Assembly: GCA_021324015.1 (NCBI GenBank)
Contig: JAJPJX010000050.1
Span: forward strand, 62,001-126,000
Direction of reading: 5' to 3'
DNA length: 64,000 bases
From: Solibacteraceae bacterium
Lineage (GTDB): Bacteria; Acidobacteriota; Terriglobia; Bryobacterales; Bryobacteraceae
Shown here in pieces: positions 24,301-60,806 of this stretch. Positions within the stretch are counted from its first letter, which is position 1. Each line of letters starts with the position of its first letter. The notes under the pieces were generated by a model. It was not told the DNA's origin and ran no database searches. It saw only the letters and a program-made list of their open reading frames with translations. The translations under genes and the position numbers were made by a program.

Positions 24301-25485
24301 ATGGCTCAGACCACCGGACGCCGTGTGTTCCTGCAATCGACCGCCGGCGTGGGCGGCCTTCTGCTGCTCAAACCCCAAACCGTTTTCGGTTCGCAGGCCA
24401 ACTCCGCCGTGGAACTCGGCATCATCGGCTGCGGCGGCCGCGGCAACTGGATCGGCGGTCATTTCGTGGAACACACCGGCGCGCGCGTCGTCGCCCTGGC
24501 GGATCCCTTCCGCGACCGCCTGGAGGCCGCCGCGCAAAAATTCCAGGTTCCGCCGGGCCGGCTCCATGCGGGCCTGGATGCCTATCGCGGCCTGCTGGCT
24601 TCCAAGCTGGACGCGGTCGCCATCGAGAGCCCGCCCTACTTCCACCCGGAACAAGCGGCGGCCGCCTTGGAGGCCGGCAAGCACATATACCTGGCGAAGC
24701 CCGTGGCCGTGGACGTGCCCGGCTGCCAGAGCATCATGGACACCGGGGAGAAGGCGGAAGGCAAGATCAGCTTTCTGGTGGACTTCCAGACCCGCGCCCG
24801 CCCGGTCTTTCAGGAAGCCTTCCGGCGCGTGCTGCAGGGCGAAATCGGCGCCCCGGTGATGGGCCACGTCTACTATCACACCGGGCGCCTGCGCCGCCAG
24901 GACAAGCCCGGCATGTCCGCCGGCGAAGCGCGCCTGCGCAACTGGACTTTCGACAAAAGGCTCTCCGGCGACATCATCGTGGAACAGCACATCCATGTGC
25001 TGGACGTGGCCAACTGGTTCCTGCAATCGCATCCCGACAAAGCCTTCGGCACCGGCGGCCGCAAGGCCCGCGTGGACGTGGGCGACGCCTGGGACCACTT
25101 CCTGGTCACCTACTGGTATCCCAACGAGGTGCACGTGGATTTCAGCTCCAACCAGTTTTTGAAGGGCTTCCACGATATGTGCATCCGCTTGTACGGCGCC
25201 GATGGCACCGTGGATGCGCACTACGGCGGTTCGGTACGTATCACCGGCGACACCAAGTGGGACGGCGCGGAAAAGGACGATACCTTCACCGGCGGCGCCG
25301 TCACCAACGTCAAGGATTTCGTCGCGAGCATCCGCTCCGGCAACTACCTCAACAACGCCTCGGTGAGCGCCAAGAGCAACCTGACGGCTATACTGGGACG
25401 CATGGCGGCCTATCGGGAAAGTGTCGTCACCTGGGACGAGATGATGCGCTCGGGCGAACGCTACGAGGCCAACCTGCGGCTCTGA
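24301..25485 (+). CDS. Tat-exported Gfo/Idh/MocA-family oxidoreductase
   Basis: The 394-residue product starts with a twin-arginine signal (GRRVFLQSTAGVGGLLLL). A Rossmann fold follows (LGIIGCGGRGNWIG) and the family motif appears as LAKPVAVD, equivalent to the usual EKP. The C-terminal substrate domain contains IIVEQHIHVLDVANWF. Family members oxidise or isomerise sugars and cyclitols with NAD(P); exported forms usually retain a tightly bound cofactor. GGAGGG lies 8 bases before the ATG. A possible promoter (TTGGCC, 18 bp, TAGAAT at 24275-24280) would place transcription close to the ribosome site. Confidence 0.92.
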   Translation: MAQTTGRRVFLQSTAGVGGLLLLKPQTVFGSQANSAVELGIIGCGGRGNWIGGHFVEHTGARVVALADPFRDRLEAAAQKFQVPPGRLHAGLDAYRGLLASKLDAVAIESPPYFHPEQAAAALEAGKHIYLAKPVAVDVPGCQSIMDTGEKAEGKISFLVDFQTRARPVFQEAFRRVLQGEIGAPVMGHVYYHTGRLRRQDKPGMSAGEARLRNWTFDKRLSGDIIVEQHIHVLDVANWFLQSHPDKAFGTGGRKARVDVGDAWDHFLVTYWYPNEVHVDFSSNQFLKGFHDMCIRLYGADGTVDAHYGGSVRITGDTKWDGAEKDDTFTGGAVTNVKDFVASIRSGNYLNNASVSAKSNLTAILGRMAAYRESVVTWDEMMRSGERYEANLRL

Positions 25486-25492
25486 TATCGGA

Positions 25493-26377
25493 ATGCATCT
25501 GCTGGAAGACCTGCTCGCCGGCGGGCCCGTAGTGGCCGATGGCGCGTGGGGAACCGAATTGCAGGCTCGGGGCCTGGAGCCCGGCGAGTCTCCGGATCTG
25601 TGGAATCTCACGCATCCCGGCGAGGTGCGCGAGGTGGCCCGCGCCTACGTGGCGGCCGGCAGCCGCGTGATCCTCACCAACACCTTCCGCGCCAACGGCA
25701 TCGCCCTGGCCGGGCATGACCTGGCGGACCGCGCCGCGGAGATCAACCGCGCCGGCGTGGAAATCTCGCGCCAGGCCGCCGCCGGCCGTGCGCTCGTGTT
25801 TGCCTCCATGGGGCCCAGCGGCAAGATGCTGGCTGCCGGCGACGTGACGCCCGAGGAACTCGGCGGCGCCTTCACCGCGCAGGCGGCAGCGCTCGTGGCC
25901 GCGGGCGCCGATGCGCTCCTGCTCGAAACCTTTGCGGATCTGGAGGAGGCCCGCATCGCCCTCGCCGCCGCGCGGGAGGCGGCGCCTTGTCCCGTGCTGG
26001 TCTCCCTGGTTTTCGATTTCGGCCGCGCGCACGACCGCACCATGACGGGGGCTACGCCCGAGCAGGCGGCGCGCGAACTTACCGCCGCCGGTGCCTGCGC
26101 CGTGGGCGCCAATTGCGGGCGGGGCCCCGGCGCCTATGTCGAGATCTGCCGCCGCCTCGCCGCCGCCTCGCCGCTGCCCGTCTGGATCAAGCCCAACGCC
26201 GGATTACCCGAACTCGTGGACGGCCGTCCGGTGTACCGCACCACGCCCGAGGAATTCGCTTCATACGGGCCCGCCCTGGTGGCCGCCGGCGCCCGCTTCC
26301 TGGGCGGGTGTTGTGGCACCACCCCGGCCTTCATCCGCGCGCTCCGGGAAAGGATCTCCACATGCGCCTCAAACTGA
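25493..26377 (+). CDS. homocysteine S-methyltransferase family protein
   Basis: The 294-residue product is a single homocysteine/BHMT-type barrel. The three zinc cysteines are present: C208 in GANCGRG and C273-C274 in GGCCGTTP. Other motifs are DGAWGTELQARG, LTNTFRAN and MGPSGKML. The domain equals the N-terminal module of cobalamin-dependent methionine synthase. It could transfer methyl from a corrinoid, or another donor, to homocysteine or a related thiol. It begins 7 bp after the oxidoreductase stop and overlaps the DUF1638 gene by 16 bp, placing it with corrinoid-related genes. Confidence 0.9.
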   Translation: MHLLEDLLAGGPVVADGAWGTELQARGLEPGESPDLWNLTHPGEVREVARAYVAAGSRVILTNTFRANGIALAGHDLADRAAEINRAGVEISRQAAAGRALVFASMGPSGKMLAAGDVTPEELGGAFTAQAAALVAAGADALLLETFADLEEARIALAAAREAAPCPVLVSLVFDFGRAHDRTMTGATPEQAARELTAAGACAVGANCGRGPGAYVEICRRLAAASPLPVWIKPNAGLPELVDGRPVYRTTPEEFASYGPALVAAGARFLGGCCGTTPAFIRALRERISTCASN

Positions 26378-27102
26378 TCAGTTGCGACGTGCTGTACCGC
26401 GAAATGTGCGCCGCCGTGGCCCGCTCGCCCCACCAGGTGGATTTCGAATTCCTGCCCAAGGGCCTACATGATCGCGATTCGGCGGAGATGCTGGCCGAGA
26501 TTCAGGCTATGGTGGACCGCGTGGCCGCCCCTCCATACGATGCGGTGGTGCTGGGTTACGGCCTGTGCGGCACCGGCCTGGCGGGCCTTACCGCGCGGGC
26601 CATCCCCGTGGTCCTGCCGCGCGCCCACGACTGCATCACCCTCTTCCTGGGCAGCAAGGAACGCTACCTTGATTACTTCAACAATCATCCGGGCGTCTAC
26701 TTCAAAACCACCGGTTGGATCGAGCGCGGCGAAGGCTCCGAGATGAGCCAACTCGCCTTGCGCAAGTGGGGCCTGGGGATGAGCCGCGCCGAGCTGGTGG
26801 CCAAGTACGGCGAGGAAAACGCCGACTTTCTGGCGGCGGAGCTGGAGAACTACAAGGTCACCTACAGCCAGTTCACCTTCATCGAGATGGGCGTGGAAGC
26901 CGACGACCGCTTCGAGCGCCGCACGCAAGCCGACGCCCGCGAGCGCGGCTGGAAGTTCGAGAAGATCCGCGGCGATATGTCCCTCATCGAGAGCCTGGTC
27001 AACGGCGAATGGGACGACGGCCGCTTCCTGGTGGTCAACCCCGGCTGGCGCATTGCCGCGCGCTACGACGACGGCATCGTGGGCGTCGAGAAGGCCGTAT
27101 GA
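26362..27102 (+). CDS. DUF1638-type protein
   Basis: The 246-residue product begins MRLKLISCDVLYREMCAAVA. It has the characteristic YDAVVLGYGLCGTGLAGL, PVVLPRAHDCITLFLGSKERY and FLVVNPGWRIA segments of proteins annotated DUF1638. Their biochemical role is not established. They are often found with corrinoid proteins, MtaA-like methyltransferases and RACo-type activators, as here (family knowledge from memory). Cys, His and Asp residues near LPRAHDC could bind metal or cofactor. It overlaps both neighbours (16 bp and 4 bp). Confidence 0.82.
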   Translation: MRLKLISCDVLYREMCAAVARSPHQVDFEFLPKGLHDRDSAEMLAEIQAMVDRVAAPPYDAVVLGYGLCGTGLAGLTARAIPVVLPRAHDCITLFLGSKERYLDYFNNHPGVYFKTTGWIERGEGSEMSQLALRKWGLGMSRAELVAKYGEENADFLAAELENYKVTYSQFTFIEMGVEADDRFERRTQADARERGWKFEKIRGDMSLIESLVNGEWDDGRFLVVNPGWRIAARYDDGIVGVEKAV

Positions 27103-28118
27103 CCGGGCGCGAGCGCATCCTCGCCATGCTCGCCGGCCGCCCGGTGGACCGCCTGCCGCTGATGCCCATCACCATGATGTTCGCCGCCCGCCAGATTGGC
27201 GTGCGCTACCGCGAGTACGTCACCGACTACCGCGCACTGGCCGAAGCCCAGATGCGCACGGCGGAAACGTTCGGCTTCGACTACGTCTCTTGCATCTCCG
27301 ACCCGGCGCGCGAGCCCGCCGACCTGGGCGCCGCCATCGAGTGGTTCGACGATCAGCCGCCCGCCATCGACGACAAGCAGGCCCTTCTCGCCGACAAGCG
27401 TGCGCTGGCATGCCTGAAGCCGCCCGATCCGCTGAGCGGCGGGCGCATGCACGATCGCGTCTGCGCCGCCGCTCTGCTCGCCCGGCGGTCCGCCGGCCAA
27501 CTGCTGGTCGAGGGGTGGGTGGAAGGCCCTTGCGCCGAAGCCGCCGATCTGCGCGGCATCAATACACTCATGCTGGATTTCTTCGACGATCCGCCGTTCG
27601 TGCGCGACCTGTTCGCCTTCGCCGTGGAGATGGAACTGCGCTTCGCCAAAGCGCAGGTGGAGGCCGGTGCGGACTTGATCGGGGTCGGGGATGCGGCCGC
27701 GTCGCTGGTGGGCCCGGCGTTCTACCAGGAATTCGTCTGGCCGTCCGAGAAGCAGTTAGTGGACGGGCTGCACGCGCTGGGCACGCGCGTGCGCCTGCAC
27801 ATCTGCGGCAAAACGCGGCGCCTGGTGGACGGCATGGGCCGTCTGGGCTGCGAGATCGTGGACCTGGATTACCTCACGCCCCTGGCCGAGGCGCGCGCCG
27901 CCATGGGGCCGGACCAGGTGCTGCTGGGCAACGTCGAGCCGGTGGGCGTGCTGCGCAACGGCACTCCCGAAAGCGTTTGGACGGCCGTGGCCGAGTGCCA
28001 CCGCCAGGCTGGTGCGCGCTACATCGTGGGCGCCGGCTGCGAGGTGGTGCGCGACACGCCGGAGGCCAACCTGCGCGCCCTCTGCCGCTACGCCTGCGAG
28101 GCCCCGGCCGCCGCATGA
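27099..28118 (+). CDS. MtaA/CmuA-like corrinoid methyltransferase (uroporphyrinogen-decarboxylase fold)
   Basis: The 339-residue product has the URO-D fold (MTGRERILAMLAGRPVDRLP, LVEGWVEGPCAEAADLRG, GDAAASLVGPAFYQEFVWPS). It also carries the zinc motif of methylcobamide:thiol methyltransferases: H234-x-C236 in RLHICGKT and C314 in GAGCEVV. That motif is absent from true haem-pathway decarboxylases, so methyl transfer from a methyl-corrinoid is more likely than tetrapyrrole decarboxylation. The methyl acceptor is unknown. ATGA overlaps join it to DUF1638 before and the RACo-like gene after. Confidence 0.88.
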   Translation: MTGRERILAMLAGRPVDRLPLMPITMMFAARQIGVRYREYVTDYRALAEAQMRTAETFGFDYVSCISDPAREPADLGAAIEWFDDQPPAIDDKQALLADKRALACLKPPDPLSGGRMHDRVCAAALLARRSAGQLLVEGWVEGPCAEAADLRGINTLMLDFFDDPPFVRDLFAFAVEMELRFAKAQVEAGADLIGVGDAAASLVGPAFYQEFVWPSEKQLVDGLHALGTRVRLHICGKTRRLVDGMGRLGCEIVDLDYLTPLAEARAAMGPDQVLLGNVEPVGVLRNGTPESVWTAVAECHRQAGARYIVGAGCEVVRDTPEANLRALCRYACEAPAAA

Positions 28119-29608
28119 TCCGCATCCGCCTGGAACCGCTGGGAAAGACCCTGGCTGTCGAGCCGGGCACGCCGCTGCGAGACGTCCTGTTCCCCTACGG
28201 CGTAGAGTTCCCCTGCGGCGGGCGGGCGCGCTGCCGGCGCTGCAAGGTGCGCGTGCTGGATGGCGAACTGGCGGCCACCCCCGAGCAGGAGCGCCTCCTC
28301 GCGCCTTCCGAGATCGCCGCCGGCTGGCGCCTGGCCTGCCACTCGACCGCCGCCGCCGACGTCACTCTGGAAATCGCGCAATGGCAGACCGCCATCCTGG
28401 CCGACGATTCCGCTTTCCCGTTCACCCCGCGCCCGGGTTTGGGCATCGCCGTGGATCTGGGCACCACCACGCTGGTGGCGCAACTGCTCGACCTCTCGAC
28501 CGGCCGCGTCCTGGGCGTGCGCACCGCGCTCAACCCCCAGGCGGCCTATGGCAGCGACGTCATGAGCCGGGTGGAATTCGCCGTGGCCGGCGGCCTGGAG
28601 AGGCTGTGCGGTCTGATCCGTACGGAGATCGGCGCCATGGCCTCCGCGCTGGCCGGCGAAACGACGATCGCGGATGTGGCGCTGGTGGGCAACACGGTCA
28701 TGCACCACCTGTTCTGCTCCATCGACCTGGAGCCGCTGGCGCACTGCCCCTTCGAGCCCGAGTGTGACGGCTTGCAGGTCTTCCCGGCGGCGGATCTCGG
28801 CTGGAGCCTGGCGGGCAATCCGGCGGTGCGCTTCCTGCCCTGCCTGGGCGGCTTCGTGGGTAGTGACATCCTGGCCGGCATCCTGGCCACCCGCATGGCC
28901 GAAAGCGAGGAGCTTCTCGGCCTGGTGGATCTGGGCACCAATGGAGAGATCGTTATCGGCAACCGGGAGCGTATCCTGTGCGCCTCCACCGCCGCCGGGC
29001 CGGCCTTCGAGGGCGGCCGCATCTCCATGGGTATGCGGGCGGCTGCCGGCGCCATCGCCGAAGTCGAAGCGGTTGAGGGCAACCTGGTGTGCCGCGTTCT
29101 GGGGCACACAGTCCCCAGGGGCATCTGCGGCAGCGGCCTGGTGGATGCGGTAGCGGCCGGCCTCGACCTGGGTTTGATTCAGCCGGGCGGCCGGTTGGCC
29201 TCTGGCAACGGCGGCAACGGCGGCCTCCCTCTGGCGCCGCCCGTGCAGCTTACCCAGCGCGACATCCGCGAGCTGCAACTGGCCAAAGCCGCCACGGCCG
29301 CGGGCCTGGCCATCGTGCTGGAGCGCTTCGGCGCCCGCCCGGAGGATCTGCGCACGCTCTACCTCGCGGGCGCCTTCGGCAACTACCTGAACCGCGCCAG
29401 CGCCCGCCGCATCGGCCTGCTGGAAGTTCCGCTGGAAAAAGTGGAACCGGCCGGCAACACCGCCCTGCTGGGCGCCAAGCTGGCCTTGTTTTACGCCTCC
29501 GACTACGTGGACCTGCGCGCTCGCATCCGGCACATCCCCCTGGGTTCGGACCCCGAATTTCAGGACCGCTACGTAGCGGCCATGCCGTTCCCGCCTACTT
29601 CACCCTGA
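28115..29608 (+). CDS. RACo-like ferredoxin/ASKHA corrinoid-activation protein
   Basis: The 497-residue product has an N-terminal [2Fe-2S] ferredoxin domain with C34-x5-C40-x2-C43 and C75. An ASKHA-type ATPase region follows: IAVDLGTTTLVAQLLD, ALVGNTVMHHLF, GLVDLGTNGEIVIGN, GICGSGLVDAVAAGLDLG and YLAGAFGNYLNRASA. Family members (RACo, RamA, DUF4445) reduce inactive Co(II) corrinoid to Co(I) at the expense of ATP. This is the strongest sign that the cluster works on corrinoid. The ATG overlaps the methyltransferase stop by 4 bp. The stop overlaps the convergent chagasin-like gene by 14 bp. No corrinoid-binding protein is encoded nearby. Confidence 0.93.
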   Translation: MIRIRLEPLGKTLAVEPGTPLRDVLFPYGVEFPCGGRARCRRCKVRVLDGELAATPEQERLLAPSEIAAGWRLACHSTAAADVTLEIAQWQTAILADDSAFPFTPRPGLGIAVDLGTTTLVAQLLDLSTGRVLGVRTALNPQAAYGSDVMSRVEFAVAGGLERLCGLIRTEIGAMASALAGETTIADVALVGNTVMHHLFCSIDLEPLAHCPFEPECDGLQVFPAADLGWSLAGNPAVRFLPCLGGFVGSDILAGILATRMAESEELLGLVDLGTNGEIVIGNRERILCASTAAGPAFEGGRISMGMRAAAGAIAEVEAVEGNLVCRVLGHTVPRGICGSGLVDAVAAGLDLGLIQPGGRLASGNGGNGGLPLAPPVQLTQRDIRELQLAKAATAAGLAIVLERFGARPEDLRTLYLAGAFGNYLNRASARRIGLLEVPLEKVEPAGNTALLGAKLALFYASDYVDLRARIRHIPLGSDPEFQDRYVAAMPFPPTSP

Positions 29609-42555: not shown

Positions 42556-44154
42556 ATGCGCTTCCCTGCCCTGCTCGCCCTGCTGGGCGCCTCCCTGATT
42601 TCCGCCCCCGCCGCCAACCGCGACGAGCGCGTCGAGTGGTTCCGGGATGCCGGCTTCGGCCTCTTCATCCACTGGAGCCTGGACAGCCAGATCGGCTCCA
42701 CCATCAGCCATACCCTGGTAGGCGCCTCCGAAGATTACATCCAGCGCTTTCTCCAGTTGCCCCGCAGCTTCAACCCGCATAAGTTCGAGCCGCGCGATTG
42801 GGCCGTGCTGGCGCGCCTGGCAGGCTTCCGCTATGTCGTGTTCACGGCCAAGCATCACTCCGGCTTCTGCATGTTCGATTCCGCCACCACGGATTTCACG
42901 GTCATGCACACGCCCTACGGCCGCGACATCACTGCCCAGGTGCTCCAGGCCTTCCGCGAACAGGGCATCGCCCCCGGACTCTATTTCTCCCCGGACGATT
43001 TTCACTATCTGCATGAGCATGGCATTACGATCAACCGCTACACCACCGAGGCCTCGCCCGATAGCAACCCCGGGCTGCTGCGCTACGATCAGGCCCAGAT
43101 CCGCGAGCTGCTGACCCGCTATGGGAACATCGGCCTGCTGTTTCTCGACGGCCCGGCGCGGAACCTGCGTGACACCGCCTGGCAGCTCGATCCCAACGTG
43201 ATTGTCACCCGTGGCGCCATGGAAACCCCCGAGCAGCACATCCCCGGCGTGCCCATCGAGGGTCCCTGGGAATCCTGCATCACTATGGGCGAAGCCTGGC
43301 AGTATCAGCCCACCAACGATCATTACAAGTCCGGCGCCGAGCTGATCTCCGACCTGATCGAAACCCGCGCCAAGGGCGGCAACCTGCTCCTCAACGTCGG
43401 TCCCCGGCCCGACGGAGAGCTGCCCATCGAGCAGGAATCGCGCCTCCGCGAGATAGCCCTGTGGATGTTCGTCAACGGCGAAGCCATCTACGGCGTGCGC
43501 CCCTGGATCGTCACCAATGAAAACGAGATCTGGTTCACCCGCCGCCGCGGCGAAGACACGCTGTACGCGTTCGTTACCGGCGAGCGCTGGAAGCTGGGGG
43601 AGTGGAAAGAGATCACCCTGCACTCCGTGAAAACCTCCGCCGGCGCTCAGGTCAGCGTCCTGGGGCAGAACGACAAAGTGCTCGAATACCAGCCGCGCGT
43701 GGTTCCCGAAACCACCTGGCGGCAGCAGCCCGACGGTCTGCACATCCGCGCCATGCGCGCCCAGAGGCTCTATGACGACCGCCGCTGGCCCAACCCCGTG
43801 GTGCTGAAGATCACCCACGCCCAACCCGGCATCGTCCCGCCGCGGGTGCTCACCACCGGCGCGGGCTGGGACCCGCAAACCGGCTCCGCCACGCTAGAGG
43901 GCGCGCTCCGCTCTCTGGGCAATGCTCCCGCCGTCGAGGTCGGCTTCCAGTACCGCCCGCGCAAGGGCATGACCGATCTGTACGAAAAGACCGCCCCCTG
44001 GAGTGACACTGCGTACCTGCGGCGCTCGGCGCCCGGCGAGTTCAGCCTGAAACTCTCCGGCCTGGAGAAAGGCCGGGAATACGATTATCGGGCCGTAGTG
44101 AAGCACCCCCTGCTCACGCTCTATGGAGAGGAAAAGGTGTTCACCGCCCGCTAG
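42556..44154 (+). CDS. exported GH29 alpha-L-fucosidase-like glycosidase
   Basis: The 532-residue product has a signal peptide (MRFPALLALLGASLISAPAA). The GH29 catalytic barrel has FGLFIHWSLDS, YVVFTAKHHSGFCMFDS and the nucleophile region NIGLLFLDGPA, where the usual WFDG is FLDG. It also has NLLLNVGPRPDGELP, and a C-terminal beta-sandwich ends it. Fucose release from plant or microbial glycans is inferred; other substrates are possible because the nucleophile motif is slightly altered. A GTG at 42538 overlapping the purN stop is an alternative start. Confidence 0.9.
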   Translation: MRFPALLALLGASLISAPAANRDERVEWFRDAGFGLFIHWSLDSQIGSTISHTLVGASEDYIQRFLQLPRSFNPHKFEPRDWAVLARLAGFRYVVFTAKHHSGFCMFDSATTDFTVMHTPYGRDITAQVLQAFREQGIAPGLYFSPDDFHYLHEHGITINRYTTEASPDSNPGLLRYDQAQIRELLTRYGNIGLLFLDGPARNLRDTAWQLDPNVIVTRGAMETPEQHIPGVPIEGPWESCITMGEAWQYQPTNDHYKSGAELISDLIETRAKGGNLLLNVGPRPDGELPIEQESRLREIALWMFVNGEAIYGVRPWIVTNENEIWFTRRRGEDTLYAFVTGERWKLGEWKEITLHSVKTSAGAQVSVLGQNDKVLEYQPRVVPETTWRQQPDGLHIRAMRAQRLYDDRRWPNPVVLKITHAQPGIVPPRVLTTGAGWDPQTGSATLEGALRSLGNAPAVEVGFQYRPRKGMTDLYEKTAPWSDTAYLRRSAPGEFSLKLSGLEKGREYDYRAVVKHPLLTLYGEEKVFTAR

Positions 44155-57971: not shown

Positions 57972-60806
57972 CTAACGCCTGCGCTCGCCTCCTTTGGCAG
58001 GTTGCTGTTCGAGTTCCACGGGGCCAAGCAAGCCGGAGGGCAGTGGCTCATTCTTCACGAACTCCTTCTCCCGCGGTTTCGGGATCTTTGTCCCGTAGGT
58101 GGCTTCAATCTCGCTGTAGTCTTTGGTAGGCTGCCTCAGCACCGCATTGATCAGAAGGTTCGTCACGTCGATGCGCACGGCGTTGCTGCCCAGGTGCAGC
58201 GACCGGGTAATGTCCACCACGTACGGGCGTTTCCAGGCAACCCCGTCGTTCTGTCCGTTCACCCAGACTTCCGCCGTGTTCTTCACGTCGCCCATATTCA
58301 GAAGCACTCGCGTGCCCGGCGCAAGATAGGCAGCCGGAACGTCGATGGCGGTCTCGTAGGTTCCCCGGCCCGAGAAGTAGCGGGCGTCCGGAAACTCGGT
58401 CCACGACTTCAGTCGCCGCATTTCCACCGGCTGAGCGCCGCTGCTTTCCCAGCGCAGTTTCCAGGAGTTCGTAAAGGGTATCGGAGCTTCGAGCGGCTTC
58501 GCCGCAGGAGGCGCCGCCGTCGGGGGTGCCCGATGCTCGCGGCCGAATACCACAAAGGCCGAATCATAGGACTCGAGAGCGAGATCCACGGCCGTCCGGC
58601 CGCCCTCATAATGAAAACCGCCAGCCACCGAAATGCGCCCGCTCATGGGGTCCCAGATTTCCGGTGTCCGAGCGCCCGCCCGGAAACTGACGCGCAGTTC
58701 GCGTTTGGCGGTCGTGAAGTTGGCGAGGAAATAGATGTCGTGGTCTGCGCCTCGGCGATGCACGAAGCCCATCTCCGGCAAGCCCCCGGCGGCGGAAATA
58801 TCCGGGGGCTCGGCCTGTTCCAGCGCTTTTTTCAAGCTCTCTCTCTCGTCCTTCGCGAACAGCGAACGCCCCCTGCCCACACGGCGCACCTCGAGCGGCT
58901 TCGATTCGTCCATTCCGCCGTACAACTCGGCGCGCAGCGCGTTGAAGCGCGCGGCGTTCCGGTCGCGGTCGCGATAGGCGTAAGCGAGCTTCGGGATTTC
59001 GAGCGTCGTGATTACGGTCCCTCCGCTCCGGCAGAATTCGGCAATGCGCTCCAGGTCGGACAGGGGCAGACCCCTCACCCCGGGAAGAATCACGATCGGG
59101 TAGCTTGCCTCGCCGATCCGGAACCTGCCGTGTTCGGCCGTGCCCGTCGCCGCCAGCACCGAATGATCGATGCCGTCCAGGGAATAGCCGCTCGTGATGA
59201 CCGTGTTTACCAGCTCGGAGGTGTAATCGTAGACTCCGTTGGGAATTCCCATGTCTGCCATGCGCCGCTGGTGGCGGTCCAGCTTTCTTTCCACCCACCA
59301 CGCCAGCGGTAGGGCGCCCGGCGCGTGCTCGGCGTAAACATCGCCCTCCGGCAGATAAACCAGCACGTCCGCCACCGGCGACCCCTGCGCAAGCAGGTAG
59401 CTCGCGCGGTGGACATAACTGGTCAGGTAGTGAAAGTACGGCCACCAGGTCTGGTGCTCGGTGAACATCGTCCCCGCGTAGTATCCCCAGCCGGGAACGC
59501 CCGCCGCGGGCGGCGAGTAGGCATACCCGTGCGCCACGATCCGGTTGGCGCCCGAAACAAAAATGGCGTCGGTCGTGCGTTTCAGGTCCTCCAGGGTCTC
59601 GTCGTAGCGCGAGGGCTGCGTCAGCCACGTGTAGGCTTCGTCGCTGATGATCGGATGGTTGAAAAAGTGCGCCGCCGAGCTGGTCCAGCGCACCATATTG
59701 AACTCCTTCCAGTCATACTCTTCCCCCATGGGGAAGTCCGTGAACGAGTAACTGGCCTGCGTAACCGGAGGCTCGCCGTAGGATTCGGACTGGAATCGGA
59801 AACCGTGCGCGTGACACCAGTCGCTGATGGTCTTGAGATAATTCTGGTTGGCCAGTTCGGAGACCGTCTCCCAATAGTCGTAACGGATGTGCGGCGTATC
59901 GGGCTGCTGGCGGAACAGCGCAGCCAGGTGCGGGCGCAGGTCGTAGCCGCGCCGCCTCCGGAACTCGTCCGGAAAGCTGGACGTCCAGCAGGTGCCGTAC
60001 ACTTCGAAACTGGGCGAATACATAGCCCGAATGCGGCCTTTGCCGGCCTCGGCCAGCTTTTCGCAGACGGTCTTCAGATACAGCTCGACCGCGCGCTTGT
60101 CGAGATGATCGATGACGTTCCCGCCGGCGCCCGCCGCGGCGTAGGCCACCTTGTGGCGCGCCAGCGTGGGCCCTTCGAGGAACGTCATCATTTGCCACTC
60201 CCCGGCCGGCGCCACGAATGTCACGGAATCGGCGGCCCCCTGCCCCGTCAACTCGACAGGAGCGGCGGCCGAAGCGGGATCCCGCGGCACAAGCTGCACG
60301 GAGACAACCCGCGCGTCGGCCGGGCGGCGGAGCGGCAGCGTAATCTTTTCGCCCGGGGCGCCGCGGACCTCGGTGGTTTCGGCATAGATGCGTTCCGGCG
60401 AGAGTTCGGGCGGGATCTGCGGCCCGCCGTACGGCCAGCCGGTCCCCATCACCAAATCGGCCGACAGGCCCATCTCGTTCGCCGTGGTGAGAGCGTAGCC
60501 GAGCGTGTCCAGGAACTCGGGGGAAAGGTAGTTCTGGTTGTGAATCCCCTTCGCGGGATTTTCCACTTCGTAGGGGTACAACGGATAGATGAGGACGCCG
60601 CCGATGCCGGCGCTCTTGAGTACGCCGAGTTCCCGGCGGATCTCGGGTCTTGTCCACGCCGGACCGAAGATCCACCAGTAGGTGGCCATCCTTCGATCAT
60701 TCGGCGGATGGGCAAAGCCGGCCGCCAGGGGGTCCACGGCGAAGGCCGGAGAAGCCCACAAGAACGCGAGGTAAACGAGGGGAGACAGCCCGGTGCGTAG
60801 CGTCAT
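57972..60806 (-). CDS. exported GH106-like alpha-L-rhamnosidase
   Basis: The 944-residue product has a signal peptide (SPLVYLAFLWASPAFA). It has the long GH106-type catalytic region (YWWIFGPAWTRPEIRRELG, GIGGVLIYPLYPYE, LVMGTGWPYGGPQIPPELS, FRFQSESYGEPPVTQASY). C-terminal beta-sandwich domains follow, including YLAPGTRVLLNMGDVKNTAEVWVNG. Rhamnose release from plant or bacterial glycans is the likely role. It follows the hybrid regulator by 75 bp on the same strand and has its own candidate promoter and operator. Confidence 0.88.
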   Translation of the reverse strand: MTLRTGLSPLVYLAFLWASPAFAVDPLAAGFAHPPNDRRMATYWWIFGPAWTRPEIRRELGVLKSAGIGGVLIYPLYPYEVENPAKGIHNQNYLSPEFLDTLGYALTTANEMGLSADLVMGTGWPYGGPQIPPELSPERIYAETTEVRGAPGEKITLPLRRPADARVVSVQLVPRDPASAAAPVELTGQGAADSVTFVAPAGEWQMMTFLEGPTLARHKVAYAAAGAGGNVIDHLDKRAVELYLKTVCEKLAEAGKGRIRAMYSPSFEVYGTCWTSSFPDEFRRRRGYDLRPHLAALFRQQPDTPHIRYDYWETVSELANQNYLKTISDWCHAHGFRFQSESYGEPPVTQASYSFTDFPMGEEYDWKEFNMVRWTSSAAHFFNHPIISDEAYTWLTQPSRYDETLEDLKRTTDAIFVSGANRIVAHGYAYSPPAAGVPGWGYYAGTMFTEHQTWWPYFHYLTSYVHRASYLLAQGSPVADVLVYLPEGDVYAEHAPGALPLAWWVERKLDRHQRRMADMGIPNGVYDYTSELVNTVITSGYSLDGIDHSVLAATGTAEHGRFRIGEASYPIVILPGVRGLPLSDLERIAEFCRSGGTVITTLEIPKLAYAYRDRDRNAARFNALRAELYGGMDESKPLEVRRVGRGRSLFAKDERESLKKALEQAEPPDISAAGGLPEMGFVHRRGADHDIYFLANFTTAKRELRVSFRAGARTPEIWDPMSGRISVAGGFHYEGGRTAVDLALESYDSAFVVFGREHRAPPTAAPPAAKPLEAPIPFTNSWKLRWESSGAQPVEMRRLKSWTEFPDARYFSGRGTYETAIDVPAAYLAPGTRVLLNMGDVKNTAEVWVNGQNDGVAWKRPYVVDITRSLHLGSNAVRIDVTNLLINAVLRQPTKDYSEIEATYGTKIPKPREKEFVKNEPLPSGLLGPVELEQQPAKGGERRR

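Follow-up and report, generated by a model that had tools for sequence, protein, structure and literature searches.

What does a set of corrinoid methyl-transfer genes accomplish when it contains no gene for a corrinoid protein? This question is raised by four overlapping genes at positions 25493–29608 of a 64,000-nt stretch of DNA from a Solibacteraceae bacterium (assembly GCA_021324015.1, contig JAJPJX010000050.1, positions 62,001–126,000), referred to here as the window. The genes encode a homocysteine methyltransferase, a DUF1638 protein, a URO-D methyltransferase and a RACo-type corrinoid activase. The cluster is a variant of the modular corrinoid methyltransferase/split methionine synthase and is split in the window genome. 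With moderate confidence, it can be described as the acceptor and reactivation half of such a system, whose donor URO-D and corrinoid half is encoded on contig C196 of the same assembly.

Components of the cluster and the carrier on contig C196

The gene calls and the Pfam matches agree with the preliminary description of the locus, which had named four overlapping genes of these types. The successive overlaps are 16, 4 and 4 bp.

25493–26377, forward strand: zinc-type homocysteine S-methyltransferase (MT), 294 aa (PF02574 S-methyl_trans, 232 bits)
26362–27102, forward strand: DUF1638 protein, 246 aa (PF07796, 118.8 bits)
27099–28118, forward strand: MtaA/CmuA-like URO-D methyltransferase, 339 aa (PF01208, 192 bits; HxC...C motif)
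28115–29608, forward strand: RACo-type ATP-dependent corrinoid reductive activase, 497 aa (RACo_C_ter 212 bits, Raco_middle 147 bits, Fer2 34 bits)

The best solved relative of MT is the Thermotoga maritima MetH structure 1q7m (E 2.2e-42, residues 7–286). MT aligns over its full length with the homocysteine domain of this structure, including the three zinc-type Cys residues (C208, C273 and C274), which are kept in 27/27 sequences from the same bacterial family. The HxC...C motif of the window URO-D protein is formed by H234, C236 and C314, all kept in 28/28 family sequences, and the HxC and the later Cys lie in register with those of the methylcobalamin:CoM methyltransferase 4ay7. The MtaA/CmuA-type NCBIfam models are the best for this protein and all score under their cut-offs (mtaA_cmuA, TIGR01463, 158.5 bits against 235.4). 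RACo comprises a [2Fe-2S] Fer2 domain, a middle domain and an ASKHA domain, all over the Pfam cut-offs. The Fer2 residues Cys34, Cys40, Cys43 and Cys75 are present in 28/28 family sequences, and the protein matches structure 3zyy with E 3.3e-66; the NCBIfam AcsV model reaches 283.9 bits, short of its cut-off of 800. The DUF1638 score exceeds the Pfam gathering threshold of 27 bits. Single copies of RACo and DUF1638 are found across the window genome. These parts support the earlier claim of corrinoid methyl transfer with reductive rescue of Co(I).

The absence of a corrinoid protein, also claimed earlier, holds for the cluster itself (one URO-D protein, zero corrinoid genes) but not for the genome. 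The proposed search for a stand-alone carrier elsewhere identified a 231-aa corrinoid protein on contig C196, which consists of a cap (PF02607) and a B12 domain (PF02310) and aligns with corrinoid protein 1y80 along its entire length. A cluster without any corrinoid partner is ruled out by this protein. A gene for a 418-aa URO-D protein adjoins the corrinoid gene. PF02310 finds nine places in the window genome: the C196 protein, MetH, a small protein on contig C212 that adjoins methylmalonyl-CoA mutase, and six frames of 485–585 aa. The tetranucleotide correlation of C196 with the window (r = 0.951) compares with 0.904–0.940 for ten other stretches of the same genome and 0.47–0.86 for six foreign loci; composition and synteny speak against a foreign origin of C196, short of proof. 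The gene directly after the corrinoid gene (L009:11423–13084) codes for a rhodanese-domain pyridine-disulfide oxidoreductase, a possible link to sulfur.

Conservation of the operon in relatives

In all, 120 DUF1638 stretches were fetched, and 14 of them were dropped as duplicates. Forty stretches around DUF1638 belong to the same bacterial family, and operons were called in 39 of these with an in-house codon scorer (L117 has no called DUF1638 gene); neighbour counts are affected by contig ends. The full order URO-D–corrinoid protein–MT–DUF1638–URO-D–RACo occurs in 8/39 family operons, and the run corrinoid protein–MT–DUF1638 in 21/39. MT lies immediately 5´ of DUF1638 in 24/39 and DUF1638 immediately 5´ of URO-D in 27/39, while both URO-D types, the corrinoid protein and RACo stand together in 9/39. 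The neighbourhood comparison proposed in the preliminary description thus finds that the partner genes recur around DUF1638. Because of the two adjacencies and the retention of the metal-ligand residues, the arrangement is considered to be beyond chance.

The corrinoid gene is missing from 8/40 family stretches. All eight of these genomes have an orthologue (at least 64%) elsewhere among the matches listed, as does the window genome. Across 121 genomes of the family, DUF1638 is present in 53, RACo in 67 and a corrinoid orthologue of at least 64% in 56 (among the matches listed). Uncorrected for kinship, this orthologue accompanies DUF1638 in 50/53 genomes and occurs in 6/68 genomes without it, again among the matches listed; the corresponding values for RACo, likewise uncorrected, are 51/53 and 16/68. 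C196 is assigned to the window cluster on the basis of the family operon order, the orthologues elsewhere, the co-occurrence and the matching composition. An operon split in two, with the acceptor/reactivation half in the window and the donor/carrier half on C196, is therefore our preferred explanation, which we consider as a whole to be reasonably probable.

At the level of the phylum, DUF1638 is found in 20/297 genomes, and a scan of species genomes returned at least 563 relatives, 80 of which were fetched. The record titles of the latter include Acidobacteria, Verrucomicrobia, Planctomycetes, Armatimonadetes/Chthonomonadales, Ignavibacteriales, Omnitrophota, Chloroflexi, Spirochaetaceae and Sumerlaeia. 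At 66 non-duplicate loci of this fetched set, the operon contains the corrinoid protein in 19 cases, MT in 24, URO-D in 16 and RACo in 11. Some related loci carry other modules, namely MtaB (PF12176, by Pfam, in L093, L138 and L187), a pterin module (eight loci in one blast cluster, with the representative confirmed), MTHFR (L122) or FTHFS (L133), so that the donor and acceptor modules vary and DUF1638 is constant. The DUF1638 loci of Sinorhizobium meliloti and Paracoccus aminovorans contain MTTB, a B12-binding protein, MTHFR, a methyltetrahydrofolate-cobalamin methyltransferase and an ASKHA protein. A tblastn search of plasmids with the window DUF1638 gave no match, although pSymB of S. meliloti carries a DUF1638, because the two proteins are too divergent for that search. 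In the Armatimonadetes locus L133 (172–9251), DUF1638 and MT are accompanied by FTHFS, a pterin-type module and a Fer4_20/pyridine oxidoreductase, which hints at methyl oxidation via folate.

A second corrinoid system was observed in the same family (L215–L231). It has a RACo of another group (31–36% to the window RACo), mostly accompanied by a corrinoid protein of its own (43–52%) and by modules of the URO-D, MT or pterin type; the genomes concerned have no DUF1638. Genomes G306 and G313 (L216 and L217) have a RACo of the DUF1638 group and the corrinoid orthologue; DUF1638 was not found in them, and L217 stops at a contig end.

One further gene precedes the cluster in the window.

24325–25485, forward strand: Gfo/Idh/MocA-type oxidoreductase with a twin-arginine-like start (PF01408, GFO_IDH_MocA_C3)

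This gene stops 7 bp upstream of MT. Homologues (58–60%) were found in only 3/120 fetched DUF1638 stretches (L084, L095 and L103), and its membership of the MT–RACo transcription unit is doubtful.

A putative metal site in DUF1638

Residues C8, H36, C69 and C91 of DUF1638 are invariant in 66/66 aligned close relatives. The same four residues are present in 15/15 sequences of a divergent set that includes S. meliloti and P. aminovorans, for which 7 of 23 phylum matches were chosen and weak ones such as L044, L045, L047 and L048 were omitted. In the AlphaFold2 model (pLDDT 87.4, pTM 0.81), C8, C69 and C91 are located at or just past the ends of strands 2–8, 61–65 and 83–86. This placing suggests that the three Cys residues belong to one putative metal site. 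No relative was found among PDB sequences (best E 0.023), the best Foldseek matches have a TM of about 0.3 or less, and the best VIA-align match (Z 7.6) is within the range of common arrangements. A suspected resemblance to 2-hydroxyacyl-CoA dehydratase subunits found no support; these are absent among the matches listed, which excludes nothing. The proposed role of DUF1638 is that of a partner, bearing the metal site, in the module that reactivates the corrinoid.

RACo sequences for a tree were selected by length (family sequences >440 aa; others 430–750 aa and >250 bits). One side of the tree of 61 sequences comprises the 44 from DUF1638 loci and just 2/17 from genomes lacking DUF1638 (support 0.999). 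A general restriction of DUF1638 to one RACo lineage is nevertheless rejected, since the RACo proteins of S. meliloti and P. aminovorans fall outside this group despite the presence of DUF1638; the window RACo is of a different lineage from that of S. meliloti. The idea of a RACo lineage whose linker domain is replaced by DUF1638 was also rejected, as RACo_linker is unmatched in 10/10 proteins scanned from both groups. The gap between Fer2 and the middle domain is 29–32 residues in five of the scanned proteins and 37–61 in the other five, too little to build on.

Methyl flow, methyl donor and competing explanations

In the proposed working, the C196 URO-D protein, perhaps together with the MtaA-like protein of the window, would remove the methyl group of a small methylated donor and transfer it to the 231-aa corrinoid protein in its Co(I) state. 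Methyl flow would then run toward homocysteine as the physiological acceptor, to which MT would hand the group to form methionine without folate. RACo would use ATP and its [2Fe-2S] cluster to reverse any stray oxidation to Co(II), and DUF1638 would be the metal-containing partner in this repair module.

The preliminary description had offered a split methionine-synthase pathway with DUF1638 as an essential part. The split-type logic is supported. DUF1638 as part of an essential synthase is not, as the check for MetH that it had suggested revealed a full-length protein (1184 aa, contig C200) with its own reactivation domain (PF02965, 179 bits); the cluster is ruled out as the main methionine synthase of the genome. 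The MTTB family (PF06253) has no match in the window genome, with a positive Methanosarcina control, and the pterin module PF00809 is found there only in MetH and in a 283-aa DHPS-like frame (258.8 bits). In view of these results, the cluster and C196 probably form an accessory, folate-independent route to methionine. The genome also encodes CobS, CobU and a phosphoribosyltransferase of the CobT type, and beside these a TonB receptor and an ABC transporter of the FecCD type. Judging from these genes, the organism is predicted to be able to take up or salvage cobalamin; a lack of any corrinoid protein and of cobalamin import or synthesis, named earlier as grounds for abandoning the idea, is not what the genome contains.

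Several observations weigh against this reading. With a complete MetH, the genome does not depend on the cluster as its sole methionine synthase, and MetH with PF02965 is likewise present in 52/53 DUF1638-bearing genomes of the family. MT is present in 25/39 family operons and missing from 14/39, so homocysteine may not be the sole acceptor. The donor-side and acceptor-side roles could fall to either URO-D protein, the co-occurrence figures ignore the relatedness of the genomes, and at 19/66 loci other than the forty family stretches the fetched stretch shows no member of the five partner families at ≥40%, many of these being short contigs.

The link of DUF1638 and a RamA-like protein to split methionine synthesis is already published: both are needed in Phaeobacter inhibens (Price et al., 2018, PMC5764234), and these authors make no specific proposal for DUF1638 function. 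The Phaeobacter and the present systems share a separate homocysteine methyltransferase, a corrinoid protein, a RamA/RACo-like activase and DUF1638. Unlike the Phaeobacter system, the present one has no stand-alone pterin module, two URO-D proteins instead, and a full MetH with a reactivation domain. Replacement of MetH, with PF02965 missing from the genome, is true of Phaeobacter but not of S. meliloti, and the window genome has PF02965. PMC12478193 describes MtgBCDE, with which aerobic marine bacteria couple the demethylation of glycine betaine to the formation of methionine, RamA and DUF1638 being present as well; the view of such sets as largely anaerobic is dated. As in MtgBCDE, one corrinoid carrier would serve donor and homocysteine modules, with a RamA/RACo-type activase and DUF1638. 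In contrast to what is described there, the window genome has URO-D donor modules and neither an MTTB-family donor nor an MtgD-type pterin protein.

For the methyl donor, an O-methyl sugar or a sugar-like methyl ether is a tentative guess. A sugar-type transporter occurs in five loci of the family operon. An orthologue from this sugar context lies on contig C125 of the window genome (67%; the next best match has 40%). Its neighbours include GH2 and an N-acylglucosamine-2-epimerase-like protein, and a URO-D gene was not observed around it. A GntP permease is encoded upstream of the URO-D gene in L100, and a GH36 protein within the L163 operon. The number of URO-D paralogues in the window genome is unusual: PF01208 has 12 matches, nine besides HemE, the window protein and the C196 protein, whose two closest paralogues are on C157 and C3. 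Three of the nine have a same-strand sugar neighbour, namely an FGGY kinase (L201), RhaT with AP_endonuc_2 (L205) and an alpha-L-fucosidase (L202). HxCG is present in 4/9, and HxC is missing from 5/9, which may not be zinc methyltransferases. Against a sugar ether, these neighbours lack a background rate in a genome rich in sugar genes, and others are unrelated to sugars (sulfatase, PhyH, Fe-ADH, pirin and a sigma-54 activator). The alpha-L-fucosidase (42556–44154) and the GH106 alpha-L-rhamnosidase (57972–60689) of the window, which show a glycan-degrading lifestyle, have no link to the cluster, and a literature search of a limited collection returned no report of corrinoid demethylation of sugar ethers. 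A widespread aerobic soil route, in which URO-D proteins would demethylate O-methyl sugars or sugar acids, the corrinoid would pass the methyl groups to homocysteine and DUF1638, as a hitherto unrecognised Cys3His metal protein, would be required to keep the corrinoid active, is rather improbable.

Among the competing explanations, salvage of methyl-sulfur or methyl-selenium compounds, as proposed for type 1 mlp clusters, is regarded as unlikely. The MtaA-like zinc protein would demethylate a thioether or methyl-selenide, or methylate a thiol, and the methyl group would travel on the corrinoid protein. The HxC...C zinc site of the MtaA-like protein is usual for thiol chemistry. The rhodanese protein after the corrinoid gene on C196 and a solute-binding protein with three more genes behind RACo in L078 would fit. 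The latter (L078:1907–5647) resembles by eye a sulfate-type ABC transporter (scan of the binding protein alone). In gene content, the family operon, with its pair of URO-D proteins, its corrinoid protein and its activase, is similar to the mlp clusters, which have URO-D, a corrinoid protein, a Ram/RACE activase and no adjoining folate methylase (Kountz and Balskus, PMC10418091). However, the portions of that paper used here report type 1 clusters only from obligate anaerobes and do not mention DUF1638. By comparison, the present set adds DUF1638 and a dedicated homocysteine methyltransferase, has its corrinoid gene on another contig, and occurs in Acidobacteriota, Planctomycetota and Verrucomicrobiota, among others; the homocysteine methyltransferase and the sugar-type transporter in five loci argue against salvage.

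Demethylation of methanol or methoxylated aromatics into one-carbon metabolism, with methionine incidental, is less likely still. MtaB occurs in L093, L138 and L187 and in a seven-locus blast cluster that also holds L096, L135, L150 and L177, and MTHFR, FTHFS or pterin modules in some loci. The O-demethylases MtvB, OdmB and VdmB and the chloromethane enzyme CdmB are URO-D proteins, and their systems likewise combine a URO-D donor methyltransferase with a corrinoid protein and an activating enzyme (PMC13222342). In the passages of that source relied on here, the methyl group passes to tetrahydrofolate via a pterin methyltransferase and DUF1638 is unmentioned. The window genome has no dedicated methyl-tetrahydrofolate enzyme, as its pterin-binding proteins are only MetH and the DHPS-like protein, and no PDB sequence, that of CdmB included, matches the URO-D protein of C196 at E ≤ 0.01.

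That the cluster and C196 are unconnected, with C196 serving another methyltransferase or misbinned and RACo reactivating another corrinoid enzyme, would fit the separate contigs, an assembly of 214 contigs with 4.2% contamination and the six other B12-domain frames, but is very unlikely given the adjacent orthologues in relatives, the composition match, the single RACo and DUF1638, the reactivation domain of MetH and the mutase beside the other small B12 protein.

The split-operon explanation adds to the published systems URO-D donor modules, a wide spread beyond Proteobacteria, the C8/H36/C69/C91 signature and a sugar-transport context that hints at an O-methyl sugar donor. DUF1638 is now placed in a compact operon outside Proteobacteria with four invariant residues to mutate, and the genome offers just one RACo and one stand-alone corrinoid protein for purification alongside it. 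Deletion of the set should be viable, because MetH makes it dispensable. If the donor is a sugar ether, the system would bring a new methyl source into one-carbon metabolism in soil; if the whole sugar-ether route is true, it would answer both what DUF1638 does and by what means methyl groups of methylated sugars are recovered by bacteria in soil.

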